Positions 113-59,748 of a stretch of DNA of 64,000 nt are shown here, piece after piece. The notes under the pieces are model-generated. The model had not been told where the DNA came from. It saw only the letters and a list, made by a program, of their open reading frames with translations, and searched no databases. The stretch spans positions 1 through 64,000 of the forward strand of contig NZ_LR656175.1 in assembly GCF_902168435.1 (NCBI RefSeq). The letters are read 5' to 3'. Position numbers and translations under genes: made by a program. Source of the DNA: Bacillus marasmi. Its GTDB lineage: Bacteria > Bacillota > Bacilli > Bacillales > Cytobacillaceae. Within the stretch, counting starts at the first letter, position 1; each line of letters begins with the position of its first letter.

Positions 113-430
113 CAACGCTAGTGGGACAGACCCCCAACACTGTGCTACGGTGATGCAACGGGGGACTGGCCCCCAACACGGTGGTGCGGTGATGCAACGG
201 GGGACTGGCACCCAACACGGTGATGCGGTGATGCAACGGGGGACAGACCCCCATCACGGTGATGCGGTGATGCAACGGGGGACTGGCACCCAGCACTGTA
301 ATGCGGTGATGCACCGGGGGACAGACCCCCAGCACGGTGATGCGGTGATGCGGCGAGGGACAGACCCCCAGCACGGTGATGCGGTGATGCACCGGGGGAC
401 TGGCCCCCAGCACTGTGATGCGGTGATGCA
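113..430. repeat. Tandem array A, 39-bp unit, about 8 copies
   Basis: Units repeat every 39 bp (the GGGGG run starts at 160, 199, 238 and so on). Each unit has a doubled GGTGATGC-like word and a small hairpin of five G, five variable bases and five C, such as GGGGGACAGACCCCC. The array starts about 13 bp beyond the murA terminator. Because 39 is divisible by three, several frames stay open as 13-residue repeats, but no frame has a ribosome site or a sensible product. It belongs to the same class as the two-unit array at 50245-50298. Confidence 0.9.
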
Positions 431-442
431 TCCCATATATAC

Positions 443-480
443 AAAAAACCGAAGCTGAGCACAATTGCTCAAGCTTCGGT
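443..480 (-). terminator. murA terminator
   Basis: On the minus strand the arms ACCGAAGC and GCTTCGGT, with a second inner stem, are followed by six T. It lies just past the murA stop codon and ends that transcript. Confidence 0.85.
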
Positions 481-516
481 CGTCCATGCAATATTAAATT
501 TTACAAAAACAAAAAA

Positions 517-1827
517 TTACGCATTTAAATCCGAAACAATTTTCGTTTCGTGAGCAAGGCTTACTTCTTCTTCTTTGACACGTTCGATGTCGGCACCAAG
601 AAGACGAAGCTTTTCGTGGAAGTTCACGTAGCCGCGATCTAAGTGTTTCAACTCAGTCACGCGTGTCACGCCATCTGCGACAAGGCCAGTCAAAATCAAG
701 GATGCTGCGGCACGAAGATCAGTTGCAGCAACTTCTGCACCTTGCAGATTAGATGGTCCATTCATAATGACAGAACGGCCTTCGATTTTGATTTCGGCGT
801 TCATGCGACGGAATTCTTCAACGTGCATGAAACGATTCTCAAATACGGTTTCGGTAATCATGCTCGTACCGCGCGCTCGCAACAACAACGCCATCATTTG
901 TGATTGCATATCTGTTGGGAAGCCCGGATGAGGCATGGTTTTAATATCAACTGGTTTTAATAGGTCTGGACCAATAACGCGAACACCGTCATTTTCCTCG
1001 GCGATCTCGACGCCCATTTCTTCCATTTTCGCAATTAGAGAGGTTAAATGCTCTGGCACAGCTCCTTGAACAAGTACGTTTCCACCTGTAATCGCTGCAG
1101 CTACCATGAACGTTCCAGCCTCAACACGGTCAGGAATGATCGTATGGTCTGCACCAAATAGAACGTTAACGCCTTCGATACGGATTGTGCCGGTACCAGC
1201 GCCGCGAACCTTCGCACCCATGGCGTTAAGGAAGTTAGCTAAATCAACAATTTCAGGCTCCTTCGCTGCATTCTCGATCACAGTTGTACCGACTGCAAGC
1301 GTTGCCGCCATCATGATATTTTCTGTTGCACCGACGCTTGGAAAATCAAGATATATTTTCGCACCTTTAAGTCGATCCTTCACCTCGGCCTCGATGAAGC
1401 CGTTGCCAACCTTAACTTCTGCTCCCATTGCTTCAAAACCTTTTAAATGCTGGTCAATTGGACGTGAGCCAATCGCACAGCCGCCAGGAAGAGCTACTCG
1501 GGCACGGCCATTTCGAGCAAGCAGTGAGCCCATCACTAAAACAGATGCACGCATTTTACGAACGTATTCGAAAGGTGCCTCTTCCTTTAATGGTTTCGAC
1601 GCATCTACAGTTACTAAATTATTATGAAACTCCACTCCGGCATTTAAGAAACGTAGCACTTCATTAATCGTGTATACATCGGAGAGAGCTGGTACATCAC
1701 GAATTACGCTTTTTCCGTCACTTGCTAATAATGTTGCAGCGAGCACAGGCAAAACGGCATTTTTTGCCCCTTCTACTTTAACGGTACCGCTAAGCCTATT
1801 TCCGCCGCGGACGATGATTTTTTCCAA
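517..1827 (-). CDS. murA: UDP-N-acetylglucosamine 1-carboxyvinyltransferase (MurA1)
   Basis: Transfers the enolpyruvyl group of PEP to UDP-GlcNAc, the first committed step of peptidoglycan precursor synthesis in the cytoplasm. The 436-residue length is normal. Lys22 sits in the conserved GAKNA motif and the catalytic Cys117, the fosfomycin target, in [13 protein letters not shown]. The product is of the MurAA type; a paralogue (murZ) lies at 53047-54333, the usual two-copy state in low-GC Gram-positives. It follows ywmB by 33 bp as in B. subtilis and has its own terminator. Identification is secure. Confidence 0.97.
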
Positions 1828-1860
1828 AGTGTATTCCCCTCCGCGTCCATTTTCTCTATA

Positions 1861-2634
1861 TTAATATTCAATCGTAATGATTGGTGTGCCAACAACAAGG
1901 GTTGTCTTTGCGCCCATTCCTTGTGTTCGCAAGGCCAATTGTAGGTTTATGCTTTCTTGGTTTCTTTTTAGCGATTCGGCGAATAAAGGCGAAGCAGCCG
2001 TTACAGAAATAAATGATTCTTCAGATAGAGACTCTATTTCATTCGCATTCAATGCTTTTAATAAACCTTTTGTTGTTGTAGACAAAGTCGATATCATCTT
2101 ATCATCTAATTCCGCTTGTACACAAGAGAAAATTTGTGGCTTTGTACGAAAGATATTAGAAAATGTCGAACGCAACCCAGAATTTAGGTGTTTTACCGTA
2201 TCCTCTGTCCAGTATTGACCTTTGATTTCATAAATAACATACGCCTGGGTGCTTTGTTTTGTGCGGGTCGAAACAATTTTGACACTTTCTTGGAATGTGG
2301 AATGATCTGTGGATAGGGCTGTGGCCTCCCAATGAGCATCGTTGCTTGCTTCAGTCCAGTCCCATGTTGGAAATTGTTTCTTTAAGCTGTTGATATAATT
2401 TTCTATGTCCTTCGTATCGCTAACGCTTGTTAATTTTTCTCTTGCATGAATGGACCATTCGTCAATCTCGATATTTTCGCCTTCAATCCGTTCGGCTAAA
2501 GTGATTAAATCGATCGCTTCCGGTGCGTTGGAATTTGGTTTCGATTTCGTCGCTTCAGTCGGACGATTCCCGAATTGCACAAGGATAAAACTAATAATGA
2601 CTAAAATTACCCATTTATTTATATGTTTTTTCAT
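1861..2634 (-). CDS. ywmB: YwmB family protein (TATA-box-binding-like fold)
   Basis: A 257-residue protein with an N-terminal hydrophobic segment (about residues 5-22, NKWVILVIISFILVQFG) that looks like a signal anchor, so most of the protein should be outside the membrane. The YwmB family has no settled function. I chose the ATG at 2634 because a GGAG site lies seven bases upstream; a longer reading frame up to 2703 has no such site. Position directly before murA matches B. subtilis ywmB. Family assignment rests on sequence character plus synteny. Confidence 0.85.
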   Translation of the reverse strand: MKKHINKWVILVIISFILVQFGNRPTEATKSKPNSNAPEAIDLITLAERIEGENIEIDEWSIHAREKLTSVSDTKDIENYINSLKKQFPTWDWTEASNDAHWEATALSTDHSTFQESVKIVSTRTKQSTQAYVIYEIKGQYWTEDTVKHLNSGLRSTFSNIFRTKPQIFSCVQAELDDKMISTLSTTTKGLLKALNANEIESLSEESFISVTAASPLFAESLKRNQESINLQLALRTQGMGAKTTLVVGTPIITIEY

Positions 2635-2977
2635 CTTCGAACTCCTCTCCATACTTACATTGTTACCTGAAGAGGAGCTTGCATACTTGGGAATTCTCGT
2701 CACATTTTGACATTCAGTTTTGCACGTTTCGAATTTCTTATTTTTGTAAAATTTTACTAGCTGTTTTTTTGTAAAAATAAAGCTACTTTAAGATTTTAAA
2801 TTAAATTAATGTTGTTACGTTTCTTATGTAAGATAAACAACACCACCATGAATTGTACTGAATTAGTTTACGTTTGGGAACATGTAGGAAGACCTATATT
2901 TTTGACAAATAGATGTAATTACCTTAAAAATATTTAAATATTCTAACTATTATTGATTTTCCTACTAAAGTTCATCT
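2635..2977. other. AT-rich gap without recognised features
   Basis: This stretch separates ywmB from the DUF1146 gene. I see no reading frame with a ribosome site, no strong hairpin and no tandem repeat. It presumably holds the ywmB promoter, but no convincing -35/-10 pair stood out. Confidence 0.5.
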
Positions 2978-59178: not shown

Positions 59179-59319
59179 AAAGTTTCCTCCTCATAGGTTA
59201 AGTTTGTACAATTTTTTAGCCTTTATTTAAAGACTTGCATCGCAATTTTAGTTGTGGGGTGAAGATCCTCTCTATTTCAAAAATCAAAAAGAATGAAAGG
59301 ATATGTATGATTTTTCTTT

Positions 59320-59443
59320 TATAAAAAAATAAAAAACGCTCCGCCTACCATAATGGTAAGGGAGCGTTGTAAGAATCAAACTAACGTCGTCCTTTTTTAA
59401 GGAGCCCAAAAAGTATTCTACAAGCGCCTGTCGAAAAAGTCAA
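59320..59443 (-). promoter_or_regulatory. pyrG promoter and CTP-sensing attenuator
   Basis: TTGACT (59443-59438), a 17-bp spacer, TAGAAT (59420-59415) and, after seven bases, GGGCTCC with the start G at 59407. About 40 bases on, a terminator has arms AACGCTCC and GGAGCGTT (59368-59335) and a long T run; its 5' arm reads GCTCCCTTACC. This is the B. subtilis pyrG layout, where low CTP makes polymerase add extra G at GGGC and the G-rich end pairs with the C/T-rich arm to prevent termination. Confidence 0.88.
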
Positions 59444-59449
59444 GATAAT

Positions 59450-59573
59450 ATCGAAAAGTGGAGGGCGCCTGGGTATCGGCGACAGGCACAAGACGAGCCG
59501 GCTAGAAGGTTGCCTTTCGCCTTCTGGACGGATTGGCTTGTGCCCCCGAGCCGATGGCGCCCGGAACTAGACA
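59450..59573 (-). repeat. Palindromic intergenic element R2
   Basis: Same family as R1, in minus orientation. GGGCGCC and GGCGCCC, ATCGGC and GCCGAT, GGCACAAG and CTTGTGCC pair in register, with an inner AGAAGG/CCTTCT hairpin. It ends seven bases before the pyrG -35 box. Confidence 0.85.
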
Positions 59574-59607
59574 ATCGAAAAGTGGAGGCGGCTTGCTCAG
59601 GGGCGAG
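59574..59607 (-). repeat. R-element end remnant next to R2
   Basis: CGAAAAGTGGAGGCGGCTTG and CTCAGGGGCGAG correspond to the outer end of R4 (reverse complement of GAGCAAGCCCCTTCCGC). Only the end is present, abutting R2. Confidence 0.6.
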
Positions 59608-59628
59608 TTTCACTATTGGAATCTTATG

Positions 59629-59748
59629 TTTAATCGCCGTTTTTCCAGTTTAATCGCCGAAATTTAGATTTAATCGCCGTTTTTTCAGTTTAATCGCTGA
59701 AATTTAGATTTAATCGCCGTTTTTACGATTTAATCGCCAAAATGCATT
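59629..59748. repeat. Tandem array I, 20-bp unit, 6 copies
   Basis: TTTAATCGCC begins at 59629, 59649, 59669, 59689, 59709 and 59729, exactly 20 bp apart. Units alternate between a GTTTTTNCAG and a GAAATTTAGA second half, giving a 40-bp higher-order period. It lies about 15 bp beyond the rpoE terminator. Confidence 0.92.

Follow-up and report, generated by a model that had tools for sequence, protein, structure and literature searches.

Ten tandem arrays in a 64-kb window

The stretch of DNA analyzed here, positions 1 to 64,000 of contig NZ_LR656175.1 (C37 in our numbering) of Bacillus marasmi and hereafter called the window, carries ten tandem arrays, A to J, with repeat periods of 20–21, 39 or 52 bp. 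The genome to which it belongs comprises 4.64 Mb in 46 contigs. Pfam matches in the window include MurA, UPRTase, Sua5, thymidine kinase, CTP synthase, a DUF2529 protein and an RpoE-like protein, which point to a Bacillaceae relative; genes that we take to be nuo, atp, rho and spo0F, judging by position and length, were also present, and the L31 leader was the sole Rfam match. Relatives of the Spo0F protein, with 84–91% identity, came from Robertmurraya, Mesobacillus, Neobacillus, Cytobacillus, Peribacillus and other genera. All ten arrays reported in the initial annotation were recovered by Tandem Repeats Finder (TRF). They are listed below with their strand, where one applies.

Array A, TRF 123–430, no strand: period 39 bp, GGGGACAGACCCCC / GGGGACTGGCCCCC; grouped with RAYT-type palindromes, apart from the other classes.
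Array B, 3672–3783, plus strand (TRF 3671–3765, 21 bp): five TTTATCGACG words and the tail AAGTGGACAATGTCAC; family 1.
Array C, 26485–26596, plus strand (TRF 26479–26578, period 42): five TTTATCGACG words (one of them TTTGTCGACG) at 21 bp and a tail; family 1.
Array D, 31349–31556, minus strand (TRF 31416–31467, period 20): a family 4 copy with words GTGCATA / GTATCATA at about 20 bp.
Array H, 36617–36890, no strand: TRF 52 bp, about 5 copies; inverted repeat CATAGAG-CTA-CTCTATG.
Array E, first part, 39720–39771, plus strand: three TTATCCGTGG words, found by reading.
Array E, second part, 39801–39926, plus strand (TRF 39801–39917, 21 bp): six TTCTATTNGCC words; family 2.
Array G, 48613–49694, no strand: TRF 52 bp, about 21 copies; inverted repeat TGAACTCATGA-N5-TCATGAGTTCA.
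Array J, 50246–50298, no strand (TRF 50224–50298, 39 bp): palindromes GGGGACAGTCCCC and GGGGACTGTCCCC, 39 bp apart.
Array F, 57305–57498, plus strand (TRF 57302–57425, 21 bp): TATGCTCG words whose regularity drops later; the flanking genes converge; family 3.
Intrinsic terminator of the CTP synthase gene, 57532–57566, minus strand: adjoins array F.
Array I, 59629–59749, plus strand (TRF 59628–59743, 20 bp): six TTTAATCGCC words; family 5.

Array E is thus a junction of a TTATCCGTGG array and a CTATTAGCCG array.

Period classes, helical phase and placement

We scanned 724 kb of the window's own genome (the window plus sets of 13 and 20 stretches of 20 kb) and 80 loci of relatives (1.55 Mb), which are all anchored on Spo0F and thus represent one neighbourhood, whose arrays cannot count as independent. 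A simple custom script served for calling genes. Loci L013 and L014 were picked because a word search had already revealed arrays there, and L167 to L173 were picked for their family 3 arrays and enter the placement, polarity, phase, terminator and fold counts. With a minimum of 2.4 copies and a score of 55, 15 of the 39 intergenic arrays in the own genome had periods of 20, 21, 40 or 42 bp, 17 of 50–53 bp and one of 39 bp, the remaining six having periods of 18, 99, 104, 123, 124 and 126 bp; for the relatives, 41 of the 70 intergenic arrays were at 20 or 21 bp, 18 at 51 or 52 bp and 11 elsewhere. The preferred periods (20–21/40/42 or 50–53 bp) hence comprise 32/39 and 59/70 arrays, respectively, and the excess at 20–21 and 52 bp first noticed in the window extends well past it. 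For these two periods we did not find a continuous spread of periods combined with a lack of enrichment behind terminators, as would befit chance slippage DNA, and a chance origin was rejected, given that one Markov-1 null of 149 kb yielded no array. The idea of a single class with three periods had to be abandoned, as the 39-bp arrays belong with a RAYT-type gene (see below). Arrays of 20–21 or 51–52 bp were also seen in four of six further genomes of the same family (G023, G029, G031 and G034) and in neither G026 nor G028 of that family nor any of four genomes from other families (ten genomes in 20 stretches, 40 kb each, coding and intergenic arrays unsorted).

Within genes, 13 arrays were counted in the own genome (two at 51 bp, none at 20–21 bp) and 48 in the relatives, fifteen of which had a period of 21 bp; coding periods were mostly multiples of 3, and the consensus units of the relatives' 21-bp coding arrays resemble Asp/Glu codons. 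In the window itself, an open frame at the nuoC position (12382–13590) contains repeats with units of 93, 117 and 135 bp at 12919–13548, in which Ala and Lys codons abound. A GC-rich unit of 123–126 bp (CTAGCTCCAGCGGCTAG...) is a separate dispersed repeat, tandem at L109 6206–6573, L111 14826–15338 and L124 9154–9574, with a similar single copy near window 59440–59600 and further single copies elsewhere, as judged by eye.

Units of the 21-bp class consist of a word of about 15 bp and about 5 random bases, with a period of exactly 20 or 21 bp. When gaps between words of 14–30 bp were allowed, 114/122 in the own genome, 79/83 in the genus and 211/228 in the relatives measured 20 or 21 bp; since the arrays were preselected by period, it is the lack of slipped neighbours that is informative here, and with this limit the locked gaps bear out the proposed selection on phase. 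Relative to mismatches shuffled over columns, the best ten-column block was too clean (p<0.05) in 20/26 arrays of the own genome, 16/17 of the genus and 32/46 of the relatives. Divergence along the unit was uneven (p<0.05) in 68 of 89 21-bp arrays, rather than evenly spread as in a minisatellite, and five was the commonest copy number in all three groups.

The boundary between word and linker was examined in nine family 1 elements of genome G002, for which the search fixed columns 1–9 and a filter required one CTATT or TTATTT anywhere in the element. Between-locus identity was 0.79–1.0 over sixteen columns, except for two degenerate ones (0.57 and 0.62), while the linker columns after the word gave 0.30, 0.24 and 0.31 (columns 16–18), then 0.41 and 0.40, composition predicting 0.29. 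The fairest columns, 11–15, left free by the search, gave 1.0, 1.0, 0.94, 1.0 and 0.79. In six family 3 elements (columns 1–10 fixed) the following columns read 0.92, 1.0 and 0.68, and then 0.32, 0.25 and 0.34. Such an edge between invariant and random columns suggests a binding site followed by a linker, because slippage or conversion of whole units would homogenize both.

Spacers vary in sequence yet hold, in four families, a second AT tract 10–11 bp past that of the word. AT power at the 10.4–10.5-bp harmonic averaged 0.23 in 82 arrays of the 21-bp class, being the largest in 39 of them, and 0.129 in 38 arrays of the 52-bp class (largest in 16), in which the other nineteen harmonics averaged 0.023–0.055 (values without permutation control, related arrays counted separately). 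The helical meaning attributed to the 20–21-bp periods is in line with these AT tracts; the same harmonic unites 21 bp (two turns) and 52 bp (five turns) and excludes 39 bp.

The expectation that arrays sit at gene ends was confirmed. Among 86 arrays of the 21-bp class with both neighbours, 59 lay in tandem, 27 in convergent and none in divergent gaps, compared with 915, 93 and 157 background gaps of at least 150 bp (Fisher p about 1e-5 for divergent and 3e-9 for convergent gaps), and this absence from divergent gaps disfavours promoter elements. The 52-bp class showed 23, 12 and 2 such gaps (p 0.22 divergent, 3e-5 convergent). In the window, the best hairpin precedes A to G and I by 16–62 bp and the distance between J and a stop codon is 6 bp, which makes the earlier count of eight arrays behind a terminator or stop about right; H is the array without a convincing terminator. 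A strict terminator separated gene end and array in 46 of the 86 21-class cases, lay only beyond the array in 7 and was found nowhere in 33, against 297 of 876 array-free gene-end gaps with a terminator (p 0.0005; the control covers the first 200 bp of a gap, the array side the entire distance). As to polarity, 27 of the 36 clear cases in the genus have words whose TTTAT sense runs against the closest gene that ends there (p 0.004), a bias restricted to the genus, for which reason strict polarity was rejected.

For the 52-bp class, the inverted repeat exceeded all 40 shuffles in 16 of 32 rows. TGAACTCATGA-N5-TCATGAGTTCA occurs in 123 copies in the own genome, at no fewer than 8 loci among the matches listed, and in 45 copies in G004, and was absent from 11 other genomes searched, three of them in the same genus. 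Array G has 20.8 copies with 89% matches by TRF, and locus L015 has 27.1 copies of 53 bp. Period 52 reappears with unrelated words in other genera. The constancy of 52 bp with changing words is real, and the class may represent binding arrays akin to the 21-bp system, hairpin arrays or plain satellites.

Word families and their change between species

The words, initially described as locus-specific, turned out to form genome-wide families at many loci; TTTATCGACG, for example, occurs at 4 loci of the own genome and TATGCTCG at 8. Counting exact word pairs at array spacing, with a reversed-word control that was 0 every time, we found 15, 13, 46, 1 and 8 pairs of family 1 (TTTATSGRYS) in genomes G000 to G004, and 1 and 2 pairs in two of five genomes outside the genus. 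In G000, G001, G002 and G004 the numbers were 21, 12, 19 and 24 for family 2 (TATTHGCC), 27, 21, 0 and 12 for family 3 (TATGCTCG), and 32, 0, 38 and 3 for family 4 (GTGCATA). Seven viral contigs matched three word-pair patterns; by eye these look coding or chance, L256 being perhaps a short array.

A script identified 12 family 1 elements with at least four words in G002, nine with five words and three with four. On the side of the terminator, family 1 elements finish with a tail close to AAGTGGANAATGTCACA; two adjacent elements with different words are present at some loci. In the nine five-word elements, spacer identity was 0.63 for the same position across loci, compared with 0.50 within and 0.47 between loci for other positions, and this position-specific likeness implies that elements descend as wholes. 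A copying process, offered beforehand as the alternative to selection, is thus seen as well. The tail of B (window 3766–3785) and other family 1 tails (e.g. in L212) form a loose palindrome, WGTGG-N6-TCACA, which in our judgement resembles an FNR/CRP box, and the complement of the L212 tail contains TTATCCACA, presumably a DnaA box; neither is kept in all family 1 copies.

Family 4 is a longer dispersed element whose core is conserved across 13 aligned loci. Five copies (L233–L237) share 590–720 bp and the other listed pairs about 150–290 bp; as to the terminal inverted repeats expected of a miniature inverted-repeat transposable element (MITE), GAGGCTGGGACAAAA inverted ends are exact in L237 and near in L235 among the five long copies. 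The repeat in L237 (about 210–905; also in L233–L236) is non-coding, about 700 bp long, and has hairpins at both ends, GAGGCTGGGACAAAA inverted ends and a family 4 array. Stretches of about 200 bp rich in AT tracts lie on the far side of D and F (window about 31165–31340 and 57100–57300), with weak likeness between loci in family 4.

Orthologous sites revealed how words change. At site B, TTTATCGACG of the own genome corresponds to TTTATCGRCC in G002, to a short remnant-like array with TTTATCGGCC in G001 and to no array in G004. At site C, five words each were found, which are TTTATCGACG in the own genome, TTTATGGGTC in G004 and, in G002, TTTATCGGCC, one word there having TCGACC and one TCGGTC; G001 was not comparable. 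Site E has CTATTAGCCG in G000 and G004, TTTATTCGCC in G002 and no array in G001, and site F has family 3 in G000, family 2 in G001 and family 4 in G002 and is nearly empty in G004. TCGACG and TCGGTC arrays occur at other sites of G004. Words agree strongly, if imperfectly, within a genome; two orthologous sites agree in each of two species, and two sites with the same new word and unrelated linkers point to a trans-acting partner.

In G001 and G002, in which dnaA was located, 37 of the 44 family 1–3 arrays that were mapped have words directed against the replication fork (one odd G002 pair at 697,847 and family 4 excluded, double elements counted twice). This may be the same bias as the gene polarity, because most genes run with the fork; the one family 1 array of G002 that departs from the fork rule (442,920) is placed after an open frame of about 107 codons that ends on the opposite strand, and hence keeps the gene rule. 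Family 1 sits 95–600 kb left of the origin for 6 of 7 arrays in G001 and 11 of 16 in G002, a regional clustering that was spotted post hoc and includes some orthologous sites.

The 39-bp arrays are a separate class from those of 21 and 52 bp. The genome has two Y1_Tnp (RAYT-type) genes, whose surroundings were searched for REP-type patterns, and arrays A and J contain GGGGAC...CCCC palindromes. Beside one of these genes (L174, frame 1303–1881), GGGGACAGTCCCC lies at 1050 and 1991 and GGGGACTGTCCCC at 1089, which is the same pair, with the same 39-bp spacing, as in J; array A has imperfect versions of this flanking palindrome. Near the second (L175, frame 1462–2064), GGTGCCTGTCACC palindromes occur at 1087, 1995 (inside the frame) and 3004, and this palindrome is also found at window 42167. 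According to one source (PMC3733652), a GTAG tetranucleotide at one end defines the GTAG superfamily of repetitive extragenic palindromes (REPs). On reading the sequence we found no GTAG adjoining the palindromes of A and J, and we therefore class these arrays as REP-like without placing them in that superfamily.

Putative protein sites at gene ends and comparison with known systems

Given the locked phase and the constrained words, the reading that we put first, with about an even chance of being right, is that the 21-bp class represents rows of putative sequence-specific protein sites behind gene ends that act as boundaries; the proteins, their cooperative binding and the boundary function are what we infer. 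Each element would be a row of ~15-bp sites, commonly five or six and about 11 in family 4, which all face the same side of the helix at intervals of two turns and are joined by ~5-bp random linkers. The families (TTTATCGRCC, TATTNGCC, TATGCTCG, GTGCATA and TTTAATCGCC) might correspond to several proteins with one shared binding mode, comprising an AT tract, a GC-rich specificity core of 5–6 bp and another AT tract one turn further, and protein and word would drift jointly between species. Proteins in a row could coat or wrap about 105–270 bp past the gene end, and the coated stretch would separate transcription units as a boundary or roadblock. A possible variant, and the weaker half of the proposal, is the 52-bp class, with its five turns and with inverted repeats in one half of its units.

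Several findings weigh against this proposal. No strict terminator was found at 33 of the 86 21-class arrays; polarity within the genus is only a bias, with three of six weak cases opposite, and among relatives outside the genus 19 of 44 are opposite, which is no polarity, the words there matching the TTTAT pattern poorly. The units of the 52-bp class are homogeneous, and their inverted repeats surpass shuffles in only half of the rows. Finally, whole elements are related copies, as expected of a mobile repeat, and five family 4 copies lie within a longer one.

The last point leads to the main rival, improbable to our minds though deserving serious weight, namely that the arrays are selfish dispersed repeats whose words are recognized by a transposase or recombinase and whose insertion is merely tolerated at gene ends. 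The position-specific spacer register, the 590–720-bp repeat around five family 4 loci, with the inverted ends in L237, and the gain or loss of arrays between sister species all fit this explanation, and purifying selection against promoter insertions would empty divergent gaps. However, no enzyme gene adjoined the window arrays among the part of their neighbours that was scanned, the two Y1_Tnp genes associate with other palindromes, the inverted ends are missing from most copies of family 4, and tolerance alone would not produce a polarity bias relative to genes. Selfish spread and protein binding can both hold. A bolder form of the protein-site proposal, which we regard as doubtful, is that several paralogous DNA-binding proteins and species-specific arrays co-evolve as pairs and mark transcription-unit ends by helical wrapping, the word families perhaps labelling parts of the chromosome; in two species, most of family 1 is found to one side of the origin and no more than 0.6 Mb from it.

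It is quite unlikely that the arrays are slippage minisatellites whose words owe their likeness to gene conversion or to a recent expansion. This explanation suits the long 52-bp arrays best (G and L015), and some 21-bp arrays do alternate between spacer types; random linkers beside invariant words, locked spacing, the prevalence of five copies and the agreement of distant loci already disfavour it for the 21-bp class, and a 52-bp period is seen in other genera too, with words of no apparent relation. Intrinsically curved gene-end DNA acting without a specific protein appears very unlikely. AT tracts come each 10.4–10.5 bp, and in a wedge model the predicted curvature of the 21-bp class was 11.2 versus 9.4 for array-free intergenic DNA, but this excess is less than one standard deviation of the background (2.76), and curvature would not need an exact GC core. 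Of 63 arrays, 43 exceeded half of their unit-permuted controls and 9 exceeded all 20, and the 52-bp class reached 10.2 versus 9.6 for unit-permuted and shuffled controls. Exceptional curvature is unsupported, and its mild elevation renders protein contact or wrapping likelier than sequence-driven bending. An RNA-level role, with arrays serving post-transcriptionally as hairpin strings or small-RNA sponges, seems hardly credible. The strong folding of 52-bp arrays (mean z −4.7 over 44 strands from the own genome and the genus) speaks for it; against it, 21-bp arrays do not fold in this way (mean z −0.4 over 86 strands), terminators before the array outnumber those only beyond it (46 versus 7), and a single-stranded RNA would have no use for exact helical spacing.

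Should the words prove to be protein sites, entire genera of widespread soil bacteria would possess a hitherto undescribed DNA-binding system for which gene ends form one category of location, and its specificity would shift between sister species while the spacing persists. This would matter for our picture of how bacteria keep adjacent transcription units apart, convergent ones in particular, and would provide a natural series for the co-change of protein and site, which dozens of sites per genome make testable.

Going by titles and abstract openings, we found no description of such arrays in the open-licence literature, and comparison with known systems gives partial likenesses. REPs, including bacterial interspersed mosaic elements with their RAYT proteins, are likewise dispersed, intergenic, placed at gene 3' ends and sometimes tandem, with several families per genome, and the palindrome on either side of a RAYT-type gene of this genome recurs in the 39-bp arrays A and J; in contrast, the 21-bp words are non-palindromic and unfolded, and the GTAG tag is absent beside A and J. 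Variable-number tandem repeat minisatellites are also tandem and intergenic, whereas here words are kept, linkers are random and the period is locked. The TTF-I and Reb1 arrays behind eukaryotic rRNA genes are repeated protein sites that block polymerase or fork, with one gene and one protein; repetition behind a gene end is common to both, whereas the present arrays involve many genes and several words, and any such role of theirs is putative. Proteins of the Lrp/AsnC type, of which a Bacillus genome has several paralogues, wrap DNA through several sites spaced about two turns apart per multimer, as would be the case here, but their usual targets are promoters and palindromic sites, unlike the non-palindromic words that avoid divergent gaps. 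Iterons of plasmid origins are helically phased direct repeats of about 20–22 bp, each containing a short specific word, and the 21-bp class likewise consists of phased direct repeats of this length. The ten window neighbours scanned were housekeeping or regulatory proteins, with no cognate rep gene or replicon, and neither D nor G had plasmid matches, so that a plasmid origin was rejected; unlike iterons, the arrays described here occupy dozens of chromosomal loci behind ordinary genes.

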